The translations under genes and the position numbers were made by a program. Positions 4,918 to 30,135 of a stretch of DNA of 49,962 nt are shown in pieces. The stretch comes from Thermoleophilaceae bacterium (GTDB lineage: Bacteria > Actinomycetota > Thermoleophilia > Solirubrobacterales > Thermoleophilaceae). Each line of letters starts with the position of its first letter. Within the stretch, counting starts at the first letter, position 1. The notes below the pieces were generated by a model that made no database searches, had not been told where the DNA came from, and saw nothing but the letters and a program-made list of their open reading frames with translations. The stretch covers positions 277,772 to 327,733 of the forward strand of contig JAUJNZ010000003.1 in NCBI GenBank assembly GCA_030447905.1. The letters run 5' to 3'.

Positions 4918-5436
4918 CTATGAGCCTTCCTTGATCGTGGTGACGTCGATCGAGAGCCCTACCTTCATCGGCCCGAACCCGATCTCGGACTCCGTGTTGA
5001 TGACCAGGCGCTCACCGCCCTGCGAGCTCTCGCCGAGGCCCACGATGTGCGCCTCGAACTCGATGTCCTGGGGCTGCTCCTTGAGCGTCAGCGTCCCGGC
5101 GATCGTCAGCTTGTCGGCGCCGGAACGCTCGATGCGCGTGGACTCGAAAGTTATGTCGGGGTAGCGGTCGGTGTCGAGGAAGTCGGGCGAGCGCAGGTGC
5201 TGGTCGCGCTGCTCCTGATCGGTGCTGATGCTCCCCGCCTTGACGACTCCGTGGGCGCGCGCGTTCTCGAAGTCCTCCTCGGTCTCGAGCGCCCCCTCGA
5301 ACTCCCGGAAGCGGCCGCGGATCGTCGACATCAGGTCCTGCACATCGGTCACCCGGAACTCGACGCTCGAGTGGACGGGGTCGACGGTCCAGGTTCCGGC
5401 GGGTATCACGGTGGTTTCGGATACGGCTGGGGCCAT
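4918..5436 (-). CDS. YceI family lipocalin-like protein
   Basis: 172 residues. It starts with the hallmark GTWTVDPVHSSVEFRV (about 13-28), then RGRFREFEGAL and the middle strand region with HLRSPDFLDTDRYPDITFES, typical of YceI beta-barrels that bind polyisoprenoid chains in a hydrophobic pocket. No signal peptide is present, so this is a cytoplasmic member as in many actinobacteria. A good ribosome site (AGAGGAGG) precedes the ATG at 5436. It is the first gene of a two-gene operon with the FMN reductase and faces the MarR regulator across an inverted repeat. Confidence 0.95.
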   Translation of the reverse strand: MAPAVSETTVIPAGTWTVDPVHSSVEFRVTDVQDLMSTIRGRFREFEGALETEEDFENARAHGVVKAGSISTDQEQRDQHLRSPDFLDTDRYPDITFESTRIERSGADKLTIAGTLTLKEQPQDIEFEAHIVGLGESSQGGERLVINTESEIGFGPMKVGLSIDVTTIKEGS

Positions 5437-5492
5437 GAGGGCCTCCTCTTGGTGGATCTCGCCCTCCTACCCGGAAACGTCGAGGGCTCGTA

Positions 5493-5538
5493 TACTTGAG
5501 TCTGCAAGCAGTCTAGCAACCCCTTGTGCCCTCAAGTA
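5493..5538. promoter_or_regulatory. Inverted-repeat operator candidate between yceI-like and marR-like genes
   Basis: TACTTGAG at 5493-5500 and its exact reverse complement CTCAAGTA at 5531-5538 lie in the divergent intergenic region; CTTGAGTCTGCAAG (5496-5509) is a second, shorter dyad. On the minus strand TATACG (5489-5494) could be the -10 of the yceI operon and overlaps the left arm. MarR dimers usually bind short inverted repeats that overlap divergent promoters, so autoregulation plus control of the yceI operon is likely. The sites are seen in the sequence; the binding is inferred. Confidence 0.55.
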
Positions 5539-5559
5539 ATAAACGAGCCGGTCCCCGCC

Positions 5560-23683: not shown

Positions 23684-23756
<73 letters not shown>

Positions 23757-23826: not shown

Positions 23827-24157
23827 ATGGCGGCTTCGATCCTCTGGCGCGCGTGCGCGGCCCAAGCCCTCGTGGTCGGCGCGCTGTTCGCCCTGCTCGT
23901 CGCCCTGCCGCTTCCCAGGATCTCTTCCGCGAGTTCGGCGCGCTCGTCGGGCCGCTCTCCTGGCCCTGCTGTCCTGCGGCGGTCGCCTGCCGCTCCCGCC
24001 CTTGCCGCCGGCGTCGGGCTCGGGGCCGTCGGCCGGATCTCTTCCGCGGAGTGGGGGCGCGCTCGTCCATCGGGAATTTCGTCGCTCTCTGCCTGGGATG
24101 CTCGCCGTCGTGGTGCGGGTCCTGCGCCTGCGGGTGGGATCGGCCCACGGCTCGTGA
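23827..24157 (+). pseudogene. Small multi-span membrane protein, frame-shifted
   Basis: ATG at 23827 opens with a convincing membrane segment (ILWRACAAQALVVGALFALLVALPLP). Protein-like sequence continues in the next frame (LFREFGALVGPLSW, about 23924-23965) and then in the third (LSCGGRLPLP and, later, PGMLAVVVRVLRLRVG to the stop near 24157). This is a small integral membrane protein with at least two frame breaks. I do not recognise its family with certainty. Confidence 0.5.
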
Positions 24158-24826
24158 GCCCGTTTGCCAGCCAACCGCGGTGTCGGGGTCTCGTGCCGCC
24201 GCTTCCGCCGACCTCAACGCCGGTCGGGTCACGCGGCGGGCTTGATGCGCGGGTGTCCCGATCGCCGTACTTCGGCGGCGTCCTGTGCATCGCGGGACTG
24301 GCGTCGACCTCCTGCGCCGCCGACGGACTCACGATGGCGACGGCCCGCGGCCGGTAGCGATCACGCCCGGCAGCATGCCGGCGGCCGTCCAGCGCGGCAC
24401 GGACCCCAGCCGCTCATCGAGCTGGCGTGAGCCGCCGCAGCCCCGAGGCGGGTGACCTCTCGCCCGCGCAGCGAGGTGGCCGCCGGTGCGACGCGCAGTT
24501 GCTCGACGCCGACGCTCCCGCTGCATCGTCCCGGAATTTCCGTCAGGCGGCCGCGGGTCTTGGACATTCCGCTCCTTGTTTCGTCGAGCCGAGCACGTCG
24601 CGCACCGCCTTAGCGCCTTCGCGCCCGATCACGACTCACCCTGGGAACGGTGTCGACTCGGCCAGCAGCGCGTGGCGCGGCCGCCTCGGTCCCAGAGCCC
24701 GAACTTGAAGAGCGAACCGCTTCGATTCCCGAGCATTGGCCAGGAGCATCGTCGACGTAGGGCGGCGAGGTCTTCGGCGAGACGTGAGTTGTCCCGTTGC
24801 CCGAGGCGGCACTCGTAGACGCCGCA
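24158..24826. other. No intact gene
   Basis: About 670 bases between the broken membrane gene and the metalloprotease remnant. All frames give arginine/proline-rich translations without motifs. Confidence 0.4.
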
Positions 24827-25730
24827 TCACCGTGGAGCACGACGTCGCTCGAAGTGGAGAAGGTCGCTCGCTCGTCGTCGGCCTTCCACGCAGGACGCGA
24901 TCAAGACACGTCGTCCTTCAGAGAACGGCGCGAACCGCTTCTTCCCTTGGCCGAGATCCTCGACGTACACGTCGTGGAGAGATTGGGGCGCGGGAGTTGT
25001 CCCTTGTTGCCCGCAGGCGGCCGGATCGGTCGGCGCCGGTTCCTCCTCGACTCGTCTTGGTCGTCGAGCTCCCATCGGAGCCGAGGAGAGGACCGCCGAC
25101 CTCTTGGCAGCTCCGAGGCGGCACTCATGCTGTTCACCGTCGTCGTCGAGTCGAGGTGGGAGTAGATGAGGGTCCCGGATCAAGCAGGTTGGGGGCGTCG
25201 AGCCACTCCCAGTCGTGGAAGTTGGGCTCGGGTTGACAAGGCCCTTCGCGTAGTCCATGCAGGTGTCGAGGTCGGCGCCGGACTCGTCTTGGTGGTCGAG
25301 CCCGAAGGTGTGCCCGACCTCTGGCAGAGGACATGCTGCCGGTCGGCTTGACTGTAGGACGGCTCGCCAGGTAGGTGTCGTTGACCTTCGTAGTCCCTTG
25401 AACGATGTGGCCCCCCGAGGTCCGACGCGAGCCAGCCGTTGTAGCCGTACTTGCCGTTGCAGACCTCGACTCGGCCGGACGAGGGCTTGCAGCGCCTGTT
25501 GTCGCTCTTCTGAGAGGTCAGCGAAGTCGTGAGGGCGCGGTCCCACCCCATTAGCTTGCTCCAGTCGGTGCTGACGGCCCGCCCGAGACTGTCCCAGTTA
25601 CCCGTGGTGAGGTTGTTGTCGAGCGTCAAGACGAACGGGTTCGAGGCCCTGGCCCAGTGATAGTCGGCCCACGAGTGTTTCGCCGACGCCGGGCGGCAGC
25701 GGCGGCGCTGAAGGCGGCAGGCGTTCCGCT
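24827..25730 (-). pseudogene. Truncated zinc metalloprotease, frame break inside the HExxH motif
   Basis: From the right: an AFSAAAAA segment like the end of a signal peptide, then SWADYHWARASNPFVLTLDN, DWSKLMGWDRALTTSLTS and CNGKYGYNGWLAS. In the next frame follow VGHTFGLDHQDESGADLDTC and MDYAKG. Restoring one C at about 25327 gives CHEVGHTFGLDH, a metzincin-type HExxHxxGxxH zinc site with a downstream CMDY turn. A further frame change gives the C-terminal region with SLHDVYVEDLGQGKKRF. No start codon or full signal peptide exists before the gene meets the tRNA-Glu attachment repeat at 25731, so the 5' end was lost there. It would have been a secreted peptidase. Confidence 0.72.
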
Positions 25731-25775
25731 CAGTAGGGGCGACGGGGATCGCACCCGTGACCTCCGGCTTGAAAG
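25731..25775. repeat. Distal attachment repeat: displaced 3' end of tRNA-Glu
   Basis: 45 bases identical to 30060-30104 apart from one base (C at 25752, A at 30081). They correspond to the 3' half of the tRNA-Glu gene (T-arm, variable region and part of the anticodon stem). No 5' half of a tRNA adjoins it, so it is an attachment-site scar and not a gene. Confidence 0.95.
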
Positions 25776-25882
25776 CTCGTCTCCTGAGTCCGGCTGAGTA
25801 CGGCTGAGTCTGAATTTTGCTCTACAGAGCGGGCTCGCTCGCTTCCGGCTCGTCCACCCTGACCCCACCGGATGCGGCCGAA

Positions 25883-25901
25883 GTTGCCACTTCGTTGCCA
25901 C
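25883..25901. promoter_or_regulatory. Paired GTTGCCAC sites near the left end (candidate integrase arm sites)
   Basis: GTTGCCAC at 25883-25890 and 25894-25901, three bases apart in direct orientation and followed by CTA. The same pair occurs near the other end of the element (29972-29991). They are about 108 bases inside the attachment repeat and immediately after the stop of the ParB-like gene. Confidence 0.6.
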
Positions 25902-26333
25902 CTACTGGCGCAACTCGGGGTGCAGATCGAGCATGCCCTCCGGCGCCAGTCGCACCGGCACGTCGAGCGAGGGAAAGGAGGGCGGGTCGAGCAAGTAGAG
26001 CGCCGAGGCGCGGTGGCAGCCGTCCGCGAGCAGGTAGCCACCGTCAGGCAACTCGTACAGCGGTCCGATCAGCAGGCGCCCCGGCTGCATGTCCCTCAGC
26101 ACCTTGACATAGGTGCTGATAAGGCCGAAGTGACTCCACGCACCGTACTCACCCTTCTCCCCCACCCGTAGGGCGGTGCCCACGTCTTCGCCGCGCTCAA
26201 CCTCCCGAAGCCGAAGCTGCCTGGCCGCCCGGAACTCTCGTTCGAGGCTCGTGATCGGCTGCCACGGGGAGTCTCGACGTACGTGCCACGGGAGCCACAG
26301 CTCCCCGAGCGCGGATCGAGATTCAACGCGCAC
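25902..26333 (-). CDS. ParB-like (DGxHR) domain protein of the integrative element
   Basis: 143 residues. The middle (SHFGLISTYVKVLRDMQPGR, LLIGPLYELPDGGYLLADGC, HRASALYLLD) carries DGCHRASAL, matching the DGxHR motif of ParB/Srx-type nucleotide-binding folds, but the protein has no HTH or C-terminal partition domain. Stand-alone ParB-fold proteins can be CTP-dependent switches, nucleases or phosphotransferases. Its start overlaps the end of the integrase gene by 11 bases, so it is coupled to integrase expression and may modulate integration (inference). Confidence 0.62.
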   Translation of the reverse strand: MRVESRSALGELWLPWHVRRDSPWQPITSLEREFRAARQLRLREVERGEDVGTALRVGEKGEYGAWSHFGLISTYVKVLRDMQPGRLLIGPLYELPDGGYLLADGCHRASALYLLDPPSFPSLDVPVRLAPEGMLDLHPELRQ

Positions 26334-27585
26334 CGCTTGCCCCTAAGCCCGGCACCGGCTGGACGGTCGTGCGCTCGGGCAGCTCCGCTACGAGGCTGAC
26401 TGGCTCCGGCAGGCGCTCATCGAGCAGGTGAACGTAGGTGTCGAGCGTGAAGCTCGGCGAGTGGTGGCCGAGCCATCGCTGGACCTGCTTTACGTTGAGC
26501 CCGCGGTCGAAGAGGATCGCCGCGCAGGTGTGGCGGAAGGTGTGGAAGCCAGCCCACGGCGCCCCGGCCTCCTCGGCTGCCGGTCGAACCACTCGGCGGC
26601 GCAGGTTCTCCGGGCTCAGCACGTTGCCTGCTAGCGACGCGAACACGAGATCCTCGTCGCGGTTCCACTCAGCCTGCCGGCGACGCTCCCGAAGCTCTGA
26701 GACGAGCTCGGGGCCGAGCGGCACGTCGCGGCGGCCGTGGCGTGACTTCGGCGGCTCGACTCGATCGCGGACGATCGCCCGCCGTACCCGCACGGCCGGC
26801 TCAGAGCCGTCGAGGCGCAGATGTCGCCACTCGAGGGCGATCAGCTCGGAGACCCGGAGCCCGGTGGCCGCGAGCAGCCGGAACATCACGCGGTGGCGTG
26901 AATGGACGACGGCCAGGAAGGCGGCGAGCTGCTCCCGCGTGAGCGCCCGGACCTCCTCGCCGTCGTCGTCGCGGACCTGCTCGCGGTGCGGCAACGTCGC
27001 GCTGACGGTGGGGTTGTGGCGGACCTTTCCTTCGCGGACTGCGGTGGCGAAGCAGGCACGGATCGGGTTGAGGGCGTTGCGCACCGTCGAATCCGATAGG
27101 TGGCGCTCGGTCCTGCGCTTTCGCGGTGCCCGTTGCCCAGCGGCCTCCGCGCGAGCGACCGCGTGCTCGTGCTCGAGGTCGGCCATCGCTCGCTCGTCGC
27201 ACAACCAGGAGATGAACTCGGCTACGTCGGAGGGCGTGACCTCCGACAGTCGCCGGCGCCGGCGCTCGTCGAAGAACGGGAAGGCGAACTCTCGGAGCAG
27301 ACGCCGGTAGTCGTCGCGCGTCGACTCACGGAACCCGCGGCGCCCGGTCCCCTGGTAGCGCTCCACCCACGCCTCGGCGTACTCGCGGAAGCGCTCTCGG
27401 CTCAGTGGGTGGAACTCGCCTCGTGCTACGTCGGCCGAGCGTGCTGACTTCAGCTTGCGGGCCTCGTCGAGCGTGCGGACGGACTCCTTGCGCTGGCGAC
27501 CGTCCGCTCCTCGGTAGACGACGACGTACCGGCCACCCCGGCGATAGATGCCGGGGTGGCGCGTCTTCTCCATAGGGGCGGCCAT
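26323..27585 (-). CDS. int: Tyrosine-type site-specific integrase
   Basis: 420 residues. N-terminal arm-binding region with GRYVVVYRGADGRQRKESVR (about 19-38) and LDEARKLKSARSADVARGEF (40-58), a SAM-like core-binding domain (about 65-200), then the catalytic domain. All catalytic positions are visible: R244 (TGLRVSEL), K280, H348 and R351 (FHTFRH), H374 (WLGHH) and nucleophile Y384 (LDTYVHL). It would recombine at tRNA-Glu. The gene starts where the upstream 97-codon gene ends (overlapping stop/start) and its own stop is overlapped by the ParB-like gene, so it is an internal cistron of an operon. Fully open, so it may still be active. Confidence 0.96.
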   Translation of the reverse strand: MAAPMEKTRHPGIYRRGGRYVVVYRGADGRQRKESVRTLDEARKLKSARSADVARGEFHPLSRERFREYAEAWVERYQGTGRRGFRESTRDDYRRLLREFAFPFFDERRRRRLSEVTPSDVAEFISWLCDERAMADLEHEHAVARAEAAGQRAPRKRRTERHLSDSTVRNALNPIRACFATAVREGKVRHNPTVSATLPHREQVRDDDGEEVRALTREQLAAFLAVVHSRHRVMFRLLAATGLRVSELIALEWRHLRLDGSEPAVRVRRAIVRDRVEPPKSRHGRRDVPLGPELVSELRERRRQAEWNRDEDLVFASLAGNVLSPENLRRRVVRPAAEEAGAPWAGFHTFRHTCAAILFDRGLNVKQVQRWLGHHSPSFTLDTYVHLLDERLPEPVSLVAELPERTTVQPVPGLGASGAR

Positions 27586-27878
27586 CAGCGCCTCACCGCG
27601 TTGACGTGATCGAGTGCCCGCCTGACCTCCACCTGAAAGGTGCTCAGCCGCCCCTCGAGCGGGTGCTCGCCGCGCTTGGCCTTCGACTCAGCCTCGCTCG
27701 GGGGCGAGCTCTCGAGCAGGAGGGACACGAAGGCCCTCTCCCGCTCGATTGCCTCCTGCGCGTCCTCAGCGGCCTCATGGAGCCGCTCTTCGGCCGCACG
27801 CCGCCTCTCGACCTCGACCGGGTCCATGCCCGCCGCGAGGGCGTCGCGCTCCCACGGGAGCTGCTCGCGGGCGGCCAT
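27585..27878 (-). CDS. Charged helical protein of the integrative element
   Basis: 97 residues, rich in Glu/Arg/Ala with heptad-like spacing (VEVERRRAAEERLHEAAEDA then QEAIERERAFVSLLLES), predicted coiled coil; a second helix VEVRRALDHVNAV ends it. The gene overlaps the stop of the 238-codon gene at 27878 and the integrase start at 27585, one base each. Not recognised. It may be a small partner or directionality factor for the integrase, but it lacks a visible HTH. Confidence 0.65.
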   Translation of the reverse strand: MAAREQLPWERDALAAGMDPVEVERRRAAEERLHEAAEDAQEAIERERAFVSLLLESSPPSEAESKAKRGEHPLEGRLSTFQVEVRRALDHVNAVRR

Positions 27879-28594
27879 CAGTCGCCCCCTCCGCTCGGGC
27901 TCATGGCCTTGAGCACGTCAGCGTGCGCGGAGAGGGTGGCGAGTCGGTTGTCCCGTAGCTGGATCTCGGGGTCGATGCGCTCGGCGTCGGCGACCAGGCC
28001 GTCCTCCGCGTGCTCATGGAGCCGGCGCATGATGCGCGCAAGGCGCACGCTCCGTCGCGAGCCGTCCCAGCCGGAGGGCTGCTCGCCGACCTCGGACATG
28101 ATCGGGAACACGCGGTCCTGATGCTCCGCCCACTCAGCGTGGTCCCAGAACCGTGTGGGCTCGCTCTCGTCGTCGGCCAGGGCGGCATAGAGCTCGAGCG
28201 CGTCCTCCACGAGCTCCCGCTTAGCGGCCAGGGCGTCGATGGAGCGGTCCGTCTCCTGGTAGACGAGCGCGTCGAGCTGATCGAGCAGGGCGTCGCGCTG
28301 CTCGCGGGTGAAGGTAACGATGGGCGCTCCCGTCGAGCTGCGAGGCACGTCCTCCCCCAGGGCCTCGAGCACCTGCTCTGCCACCGCGAGCAGGCTGCGC
28401 GAGCGCCGCTCCCACCAGTCGCGCTCGGGGTAGTTGTCGAGGTCGCTGAGGGTGTTCTCGGCGTCTCTCTTCGCCGCCTCGGCCCATTCGCGCAGGTGCC
28501 GGCGGTCGCCGGCGAAACGGCTAGCGAAACGGCCGAGCTTCCATACCCGGCCGTTCCGCGAGACGGCGGCATGCGCGCTCGTGCGGTAGCGCAA
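27878..28594 (-). CDS. Hypothetical protein, first gene of the integrase operon
   Basis: 238 residues from TTG at 28594, supported by AGGAAGG just upstream. Contents are mostly charged helices (WAEAAKRDAENTLSDLDNYP, TREQRDALLDQLDALVYQET, RSVRLARIMRRLHEHAED). There is no membrane span or signal. No family recognised. A perfect CCTCATGAGG palindrome lies 14 bases before the start. As the promoter-proximal gene of the integrase operon, it could be a regulator or replication/maintenance protein, which the sequence alone does not settle. Confidence 0.7.
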   Translation of the reverse strand: MRYRTSAHAAVSRNGRVWKLGRFASRFAGDRRHLREWAEAAKRDAENTLSDLDNYPERDWWERRSRSLLAVAEQVLEALGEDVPRSSTGAPIVTFTREQRDALLDQLDALVYQETDRSIDALAAKRELVEDALELYAALADDESEPTRFWDHAEWAEHQDRVFPIMSEVGEQPSGWDGSRRSVRLARIMRRLHEHAEDGLVADAERIDPEIQLRDNRLATLSAHADVLKAMSPSGGGD

Positions 28595-28607
28595 GCCCTT
28601 CCTATCG

Positions 28608-28617
28608 CCTCATGAGG
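28608..28617. promoter_or_regulatory. Perfect 10-bp palindrome before the integrase operon
   Basis: CCTCATGAGG sits 14 bases upstream of the first codon of the operon, between the presumed promoter and the ribosome site. It could be an operator; it is short, so chance is possible. Confidence 0.3.
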
Positions 28618-28731
28618 TAAAACGCGCGGCCCGGTGGAAGGTTGGGCAGATACCCGGACAGCAACGGCAGGGGACGGGGAGGCATCACCGTCGATGACCG
28701 CTTAGGCCACCGGTCGGGCGGGCGTCTGTTT

Positions 28732-28765
28732 GGGGTAAAACCGCCCTGATCTTGGAGAAGGGCGG
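28732..28765 (-). terminator. Rho-independent terminator of the coiled-coil gene
   Basis: On the minus strand CCGCCCT (28759-28765) and AGGGCGG (28741-28747) form a 7-bp stem with an 11-base loop followed by TTTTA (28736-28740). It lies 22 bases after the stop of the gene at 28787. The 24-base segment 28732-28755 recurs at 29400-29423 with two differences. Confidence 0.72.
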
Positions 28766-28786
28766 GCTATCGCGAGCGGTCTCTGC

Positions 28787-29356
28787 TCAGCCGTCGTCGC
28801 TCGTGAAGAAGTCGCGGGTCTTCTCGAGCGGTCCGCGGTTGGGGTCGGGCATCCGCTCGGTGAGCTTCTCGACGTCCCCCTTGATGCCGGTGACGGTCTC
28901 GTGCATGGTTCGTAGGTCGCCGAGCAGCTCGCCCACCGTGTGGTGGAGGTAGGAGTCCTCGCCCTCGAGCGACTCGACGAGCACGTGGAGTGAGTCGAGC
29001 CGCTCCTCGAGACTCTTCTCGAGGCCCTCCACGGTGGAGAGGAGTTGGGCAAGCAGCTTGGTCTGCCTGCTGATGCGCTCCACCACCGAGAGTATCTCGG
29101 GGACCTGCTCGGTGTGCTCAAGCACGGGCAACAGGCCGGTCAGTGTCTCGGTGTTCTTGCGCACGCGTGCAAGGTCCGTGCGTATCGGCCCTACCTCGCG
29201 CGCTGCGTCGGCCAGCGACTCGAGCGTCTCGATGACCCGCTCGGGGATGCGCAGCGGCGCGAGCAGGCCGTTGAGCACGCTTCCGCCGCGACTGTCCGAT
29301 GGCTCGCCTGCCGCCACTGCGGGCAGCCTACAGAACCCGTCCCGGAAAGGCGCCAA
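28787..29356 (-). CDS. Coiled-coil protein of the integrative element
   Basis: Up to 189 residues; a GTG about 26 codons in (before LNGLLAPLRIPERVIETLES) is a likely true start, giving about 163. The rest is nearly continuous amphipathic helix: LADAAREVGPIRTDLARVRK, TETLTGLLPVLEHTEQVPEI, LSTVEGLEKSLEERLDSLHV and so on, ending FFTSDDG. No signal or span. The pattern resembles small coiled-coil proteins common in this lineage, of unknown function. Its own terminator follows, so it is a separate transcription unit from the integrase operon. Confidence 0.72.
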   Translation of the reverse strand: MAPFRDGFCRLPAVAAGEPSDSRGGSVLNGLLAPLRIPERVIETLESLADAAREVGPIRTDLARVRKNTETLTGLLPVLEHTEQVPEILSVVERISRQTKLLAQLLSTVEGLEKSLEERLDSLHVLVESLEGEDSYLHHTVGELLGDLRTMHETVTGIKGDVEKLTERMPDPNRGPLEKTRDFFTSDDG

Positions 29357-29399
29357 TCAACCGTCTGCTCCAAGCGAGTTCTCGGCGTGGACCCCCCGT

Positions 29400-29440
29400 G
29401 GGGTAAAAGCGGCCTGATCTTGGGGTAACCGCCTGCGCCG
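29400..29440 (-). terminator. Second terminator-like element, repeat of the 28732 segment
   Basis: 29400-29423 matches 28732-28755 at 22 of 24 positions. On the minus strand GCGGC and GCCGC can pair around the loop and are followed by TTTTA. It would end transcription from the 82-codon gene before the coiled-coil gene. Confidence 0.5.
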
Positions 29441-29502
29441 CCTGCTTAGATCCCCGCATGGGAAGCGGGATTCCGAGTTTCGCTAGACCCTCCTAGTCAC
29501 TG

Positions 29503-29541
29503 CTCTGCCGCCCTCTGAGTCCCTGCGAGCGTCGATCCGAC
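29503..29541. repeat. Direct repeat downstream of the 82-codon gene
   Basis: CTCTGCCGCCCTCTGAG and what follows to 29541 recurs at 29856-29895 with a few substitutions and one indel. The two copies flank the gene at 29580-29828. Confidence 0.7.
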
Positions 29542-29579
29542 CGTTCCCTTGCCCCGGCGGTCGCGGCGGGGGAGCTGGC

Positions 29580-29828
29580 CTAGCTCCAGCGGGCGGCGAT
29601 CGCGTCGAGCAACTCGGCCCGCTCGCGGGGCGTCAACGCCCTGAGACGCGGCAGCAGAGTCGAGGCCCCGCGCAGTTTCAAGCGCCTTGCCTCGTCTCCC
29701 CAAGGCCCGGCTAGGAAGCGCTCGGTGGCCTCCACTAGCTCGTCAAAGCCCAACGCCTGAGAGTGTTCCTCGGGGTGGCCGGTGATCCACGCCAGATTGG
29801 CCATGTCGGTCTCGTCGAACTTCACCAC
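29580..29828 (-). CDS. Small hypothetical protein of the integrative element
   Basis: 82 residues from GTG at 29828 (the second codon GTG or the ATG nine codons in are alternatives). Acidic first half (VKFDETDMANLAWITGHPEE), then LGFDELVEATERFLAG and a basic helix RLRALTPRERAELLDAIAARW. Soluble; family not recognised. Flanked on both sides by copies of a roughly 39-base repeat, which suggests it moves or duplicates as a unit. Confidence 0.6.
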   Translation of the reverse strand: MVKFDETDMANLAWITGHPEEHSQALGFDELVEATERFLAGPWGDEARRLKLRGASTLLPRLRALTPRERAELLDAIAARWS

Positions 29829-29855
29829 TGGTGATCCTACGGCTAGCGGGCGACG

Positions 29856-29895
29856 CCTCTGCCGCCCTCTAAGCCCTGCAAGCGCCGATCCGGTC
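29856..29895. repeat. Direct repeat upstream of the 82-codon gene
   Basis: Second copy of the 29503-29541 sequence, beginning CCTCTGCCGCCCTCTAAG. Confidence 0.7.
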
Positions 29896-29971
29896 CTTTC
29901 CCCCTTTTCGGTGCGACGGTGTCCTCAGCCGCCCGTAGGACACACGAGAGAGGGGGTCCCAGCGCCGGCGT

Positions 29972-29991
29972 GTTGCCACTTTCGTTGCCAC
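29972..29991. promoter_or_regulatory. Paired GTTGCCAC sites near the right end (candidate integrase arm sites)
   Basis: GTTGCCAC at 29972-29979 and 29984-29991, four bases apart in direct orientation and followed by CTA, as at the left end. About 70 bases inside the attachment repeat. Confidence 0.6.
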
Positions 29992-30059
29992 CTAGCCCTC
30001 TTGAGCGTCCTCGGCTACACACCACGAGCACGAGAACCCGAATTGAGCAGGGCTTTTAC

Positions 30060-30104
30060 CAGTAGGGGCGACGGGGATCGAACCCGTGACCTCCGGCTTG
30101 AAAG
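30060..30104. repeat. Proximal attachment repeat inside tRNA-Glu
   Basis: The copy of the 45-bp repeat that completes the functional tRNA-Glu gene; it extends three bases beyond the tRNA 3' end (30063). Confidence 0.95.
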
Positions 30105-30135
30105 GCCGGCGTCCTAACCACTAGACCACGCCCCC
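30063..30135 (-). tRNA. tRNA-Glu (anticodon UUC)
   Basis: 73 bases on the minus strand. Acceptor GGGGGCG pairs with CGCCCCT (one G-U), the anticodon stem CCGGC/GCCGG surrounds CTTTCAA (anticodon TTC), and the T-arm has GGTTCGATCC. CCA is not encoded. Its 3' half is the integration site of the element to its left. Confidence 0.95.

Follow-up and report, generated by a model that had tools for sequence, protein, structure and literature searches.

The tRNA-Glu(TTC) locus of this Thermoleophilaceae genome raises the question of how little DNA suffices for an integrative element. In the window (the whole stretch of 49,962 nucleotides analyzed here), two copies of a 45-bp repeat frame a handful of small genes and an integrase, and taken as a whole the locus is, in our view with good confidence, best explained as a compact element that is driven by this tyrosine integrase, likely a reduced member of its lineage with cargo on board. 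Being precisely bounded and near-minimal, with an empty site in relatives and predicted integrase arms, it is also a convenient case on which to ask that question.

The element with both copies of its core repeat occupies 25731..30104 (from the repeat finder and the empty sites), and the unit from the start of one copy to the start of the other measures 4,329 bp. The copy on the tRNA side (30060..30104) runs from the anticodon loop, just past the anticodon, to the 3' end of tRNA-Glu(TTC) plus 2 nt. That tRNA gene (30062..30135, minus strand; ARAGORN and Rfam) is intact, with its 3' part coming from the element, while the distal copy (25731..25775) holds the original 3' part of tRNA-Glu, now displaced. 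The two copies are identical at 44/45 positions, and the sole mismatch falls in the T-loop of the left, displaced copy, as expected of a fragment that no longer makes a tRNA. Chance is a poor explanation for the repeat: even for a 19-nt part of it just 0.1 matches are expected in the window, and the full 45-bp match occurs at only these two places in the 2.58-Mb genome, a third match being short, weaker, and located elsewhere. Islands of the tRNA-borne tyrosine-integrase kind are recognized, as here, by an integrase gene that lies between a tRNA gene and a displaced piece of its 3' part; the anticodon loop is one of their recorded crossover sub-sites (PMC4383910). Thus, both the one-mismatch repeat and the integrative element with exact boundaries in tRNA-Glu, as proposed by the first-pass annotation, are borne out, the latter by the tRNA-Glu 3' repeat together with the empty sites. 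A search of viral contigs for the expected attP junction found no match.

The comparison of related genomes at tRNA-Glu that had been suggested at the same time did turn up an empty site in two members of the same genus, G002 (L046) and G003 (L047). In both, the tRNA-Glu/DUF3072/tRNA-Lys block (89% identical in G002 and 80% in G003) is uninterrupted and has a single tRNA-Glu, with no second copy of the 45-bp repeat in the stretch read. The weak point of this argument is the flank to the left of the distal repeat, where about 1.7 kb (24000-25730) cannot be aligned to the empty site of G002. The alignment picks up again only near tRNA-Val, which lies about 430 bp past tRNA-Glu in G002 and at 23684 in the window, about 2 kb to the left of the distal repeat; hence, 24000-25730 is separate, unmatched DNA, and synteny on this side rests on the tRNA-Val further out. 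Directly to the left of the element, overlapping minus-strand frames (24827-25629), between which a metallopeptidase-like stretch (VGHTFGLDHQDE) is split, look like a decayed gene. At the tRNA-Val of G002 (L046 6900-7707), the pair TGCTTCCAC-AA-TGCTTCCACC is similar to variant arm sites of the kind considered below, which suggests another island at the end of that contig.

The 420-aa tyrosine integrase (26323..27585, minus strand) matches PF00589 (9.9e-26) and phrog_1 (7.6e-64), and its alignment with seven relatives, 54-59% identical, retains the catalytic R, K, HxxR, H, and Y, so that its earlier description as intact holds. Just inside the two ends of the element lie paired direct repeats in the same orientation: TTGCCAC-TTCG-TTGCCAC with a 4-nt spacer on the distal side (25884..25901, plus strand; about 110-130 nt from the core) and TTGCCAC-TTTCG-TTGCCAC with a 5-nt spacer on the tRNA side (29973..29991, plus strand; 68 nt from the core). 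The window has no other such pair (0 are expected from shuffles), and the entire genome has only three. These pairs are the predicted arm-type sites, to which the integrase would bind. The TTGCCAC motif also lies near related integrases in the order (e.g., in G432, G053, and G022). In a looser scan of six tRNA-borne elements or relics, four have a matching repeat pair at each end: the present element, two others of this genome, which sit in tRNA-Glu(CTC) and tRNA-Met, and a G022 element in tRNA-Asp. Distances to the core in these four are 27-84 nt and 114-129 nt, and the arm motif varies between some of them, being of TGGCTAGCA- and GGGCAAC-type in two. Since random pairs of segments pass the looser scan 1.8-3.1% of the time per element, its single cases are not counted as proof, and the exact TTGCCAC pairs are the stronger evidence. 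Pairs of direct repeats set comparable distances inside the two ends furnish a signature that can help in finding and bounding related elements in the poorly studied order that hosts them. A 13.4-kb element or relic with a broken integrase lies in tRNA-Met at L133 6131-19660 (C1).

Six genes, all on the minus strand, all with open frames and each with high third-position GC, make up the content of the element. Four of them form a coupled series, in which the genes for a 238-aa protein (27878..28594), a charged helical 97-aa protein (27585..27878), the integrase, and a 143-aa protein (25902..26333) overlap by 1, 1, and 11 nt, the last overlap being that of the 143-aa gene start with the integrase stop. 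The other two, coding for a 189-aa coiled-coil protein (28787..29356) and an 82-aa protein (29580..29828, an open reading frame), stand alone, so that the reading frames agree with the operon and the two stand-alone genes described at the outset. For the proteins of the element other than the integrase, Pfam, PHROGs, NCBIfam, and PADLOC give no credible match, and these searches recognize no replication, transfer, virion, or defense gene, just as the first-pass annotation had said. Its label of "ParB-like" for the 143-aa protein is not supported: the DGCHR motif (part of DGCHRASAL) alone was behind it, and no ParB match is found in Pfam, PHROGs, NCBIfam, PADLOC, or PDB sequences, the structure model (pLDDT 48) being unusable.

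In the same genome, the 238-aa gene recurs upstream of integrase relics. A decayed 9.7-kb element in tRNA-Arg(ACG) (L044, C24:29001-49000) has the same 238-aa/97-aa/integrase order adjoining its distal repeat; like the compact element it has a tRNA 3' repeat and paired arms, the latter degenerate as judged by eye, and it differs in its size, in the remnant of a D5_N primase-helicase, and in its frameshifted genes. Because L044 combines this shared gene order with D5-type primase-helicase remnants, we regard the compact element as a probable member of the same lineage, reduced and non-replicating. We infer the reduction from a larger element from this one decayed relative, and the small form may instead be the ancestral one. 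Scattered pieces of the 238-aa, 97-aa, and integrase genes also lie at L045 (C13). There, 141 bp (5407-5547) are 100% identical to 28510-28650 of the window, other relic copies being more diverged, and the identity breaks off within the 238-aa gene, at codon 28/29.

Searches for the 238-aa protein found no match in 100 relatives and only chance ones in 399 genomes of the class, and for the 97-aa protein the 232 genomes of the order likewise yielded chance matches at most; thus, as far as sampled, the module occurs in this lineage alone. The weak class-wide matches of the 238-aa protein (E 5e-4 or worse), which have no closely related integrase alongside, were judged to be chance, as was a match of the 97-aa protein in G431 (E 4e-4) with no matching neighbors or integrase around it. 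Neither protein contains a known domain that could be found, and the structure model of the 238-aa protein (pLDDT 48) is unusable. In seven of eleven relatives inspected, an HTH_17-type excisionase gene lies shortly upstream of the integrase (as read from translations, with two confirmed by Pfam), and the element in the window has none. As the 97-aa gene sits in this excisionase position, its product is, by location, the likeliest candidate for an accessory role or for control of directionality. A further speculation, which we regard as quite unlikely, is that the 238-aa and 97-aa proteins together form a new accessory pair, which replaces the HTH excisionase and steers the direction of recombination in lineage-specific tRNA-borne elements.

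The remaining genes can be seen as cargo. The 189-aa gene is cargo from a multi-copy host family on the chromosome: the same genome has paralogues on C18 (80%), C20 (71%), and C24:272462 (70%), and G002 a homologue (71%). The C18 copy is itself inside a 3.3-kb element in tRNA-Glu(CTC) (L161 13837-17256), which has an integrase fragment, an AAA_25 gene, and paired arms of its own. Changes among the 189-aa genes fall mostly at codon positions 1 and 3, and the sparing of position 2 suggests selection on the protein, whose profile matches are all weak and of the sort that coiled coils usually give. The 143-aa and 82-aa genes probably belong to the cargo as well. The former has one clear homologue (40%), in G015, inside a 12.9-kb element in tRNA-Asp (L048 5292-18247) that also has a 739-aa orphan, an HNH gene, and a serine-recombinase fragment, and the latter is an orphan among 101 genomes. 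Hence, the description of the element as having no obvious cargo holds only by half: the 189-aa gene comes from a host family and recurs in a second element, and the 143-aa protein has a homologue in another.

Among known systems, the anticodon-site class of Islander-type tRNA-borne islands (PMC4383910) shares with this element the regenerated tRNA, the displaced 3' fragment, the internal tyrosine integrase, and the anticodon-loop core. The reported sizes of such islands peak at 13.6 and 39.9 kbp (PMC4383910), whereas this element has only 4.3 kb and mostly orphan genes; as a genomic island it is of an ordinary kind and unusually small, and most of its genes are without known relatives outside this genome. 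A tyrosine integrase, a tRNA target, and an actinobacterial host are also features of AICEs of the pSAM2 type, which are defined by a replication initiator, RepSA, RepAM, or prim-pol (PMC3218068). Unlike them, this element has no replication initiator and no FtsK/SpoIIIE translocase that Pfam, PHROGs, or NCBIfam detects, and no recognizable excisionase.

PICI-like phage satellites are small integrated elements with their own integrase and no virion genes. This description suits the locus, and a satellite that retains integration functions only, and depends on a helper phage or conjugative element for its replication and its packaging or transfer, would be small, with an intact integrase and no replication or transfer gene, in an order that does have larger elements of this integrase family and arm type. 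Plausible as this suggestion of the first-pass annotation is, we consider it less likely than not, as no primase, packaging, relaxase, or regulator gene is recognized in the element, and relatives of the integrase, the 238-aa, and the 143-aa proteins were not found in phage, plasmid, or viral-contig collections. Moreover, no helper is known: the genome yields no intact one, and the sole larger 238-aa/97-aa/integrase relative there is decayed. The absence of an HTH_17 excisionase, which many related integrases have just upstream, and the several other decayed elements in the genome would suit a stranded remnant, in which deletion stripped a larger element of its genes for replication, excision, and transfer and left it fixed in tRNA-Glu, its integrase intact but unused. 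To this we would grant a tentative place short of an even chance, for the locus shows little decay: none of the six frames is interrupted, each arm pair is preserved, the displaced repeat has one mismatch, and a comparison of integrase fragments finds substitutions mainly at third codon positions. Finally, the 143-aa, 189-aa, and 82-aa genes might constitute an unrecognized system for defense or competition, with the element as its delivery vehicle. The G015 homologue of the 143-aa protein, beside the 739-aa orphan and near the HNH gene, would fit such a system, which is nonetheless improbable given that PADLOC returns no credible match, that the chromosomal paralogues of the 189-aa gene sit among ordinary host genes, and that the three genes are not found together at any other locus seen.

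The locus is a genuine compact integrative element, probably still competent, and part of a local lineage of elements with orphan accessory genes. In the mechanism that we propose for it, the N-terminal domain of the integrase would bind both paired TTGCCAC arm sites, and the enzyme, taken to be active, would recombine the 45-bp core that the circular form carries (attP) with that of the tRNA gene, in its 3' part at the anticodon loop. Such recombination would rebuild tRNA-Glu and displace its old 3' part to 25731-25775. The 238-aa, 97-aa, and integrase genes form one coupled module, in which the part of the missing HTH_17 excisionase may be taken by the 97-aa and 238-aa proteins. The compact element would have lost, or never had, its own replication, and would have picked up the 189-aa gene as cargo from the host gene family; the function of this cargo and the movement of the element between cells are likewise presumed.

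As to expression, promoter and terminator scans of the element gave nothing above chance. A motif, GGGGTAAAAnCGnCCTGATCTTGG, is repeated at 28731-28755 and 29399-29423 of the window, upstream of the 238-aa and 189-aa genes, and is possibly a control site that the two share. A further repeat of 47 bp (85%) lies at 29503-29548 and 29857-29902, upstream of the 189-aa and 82-aa genes.
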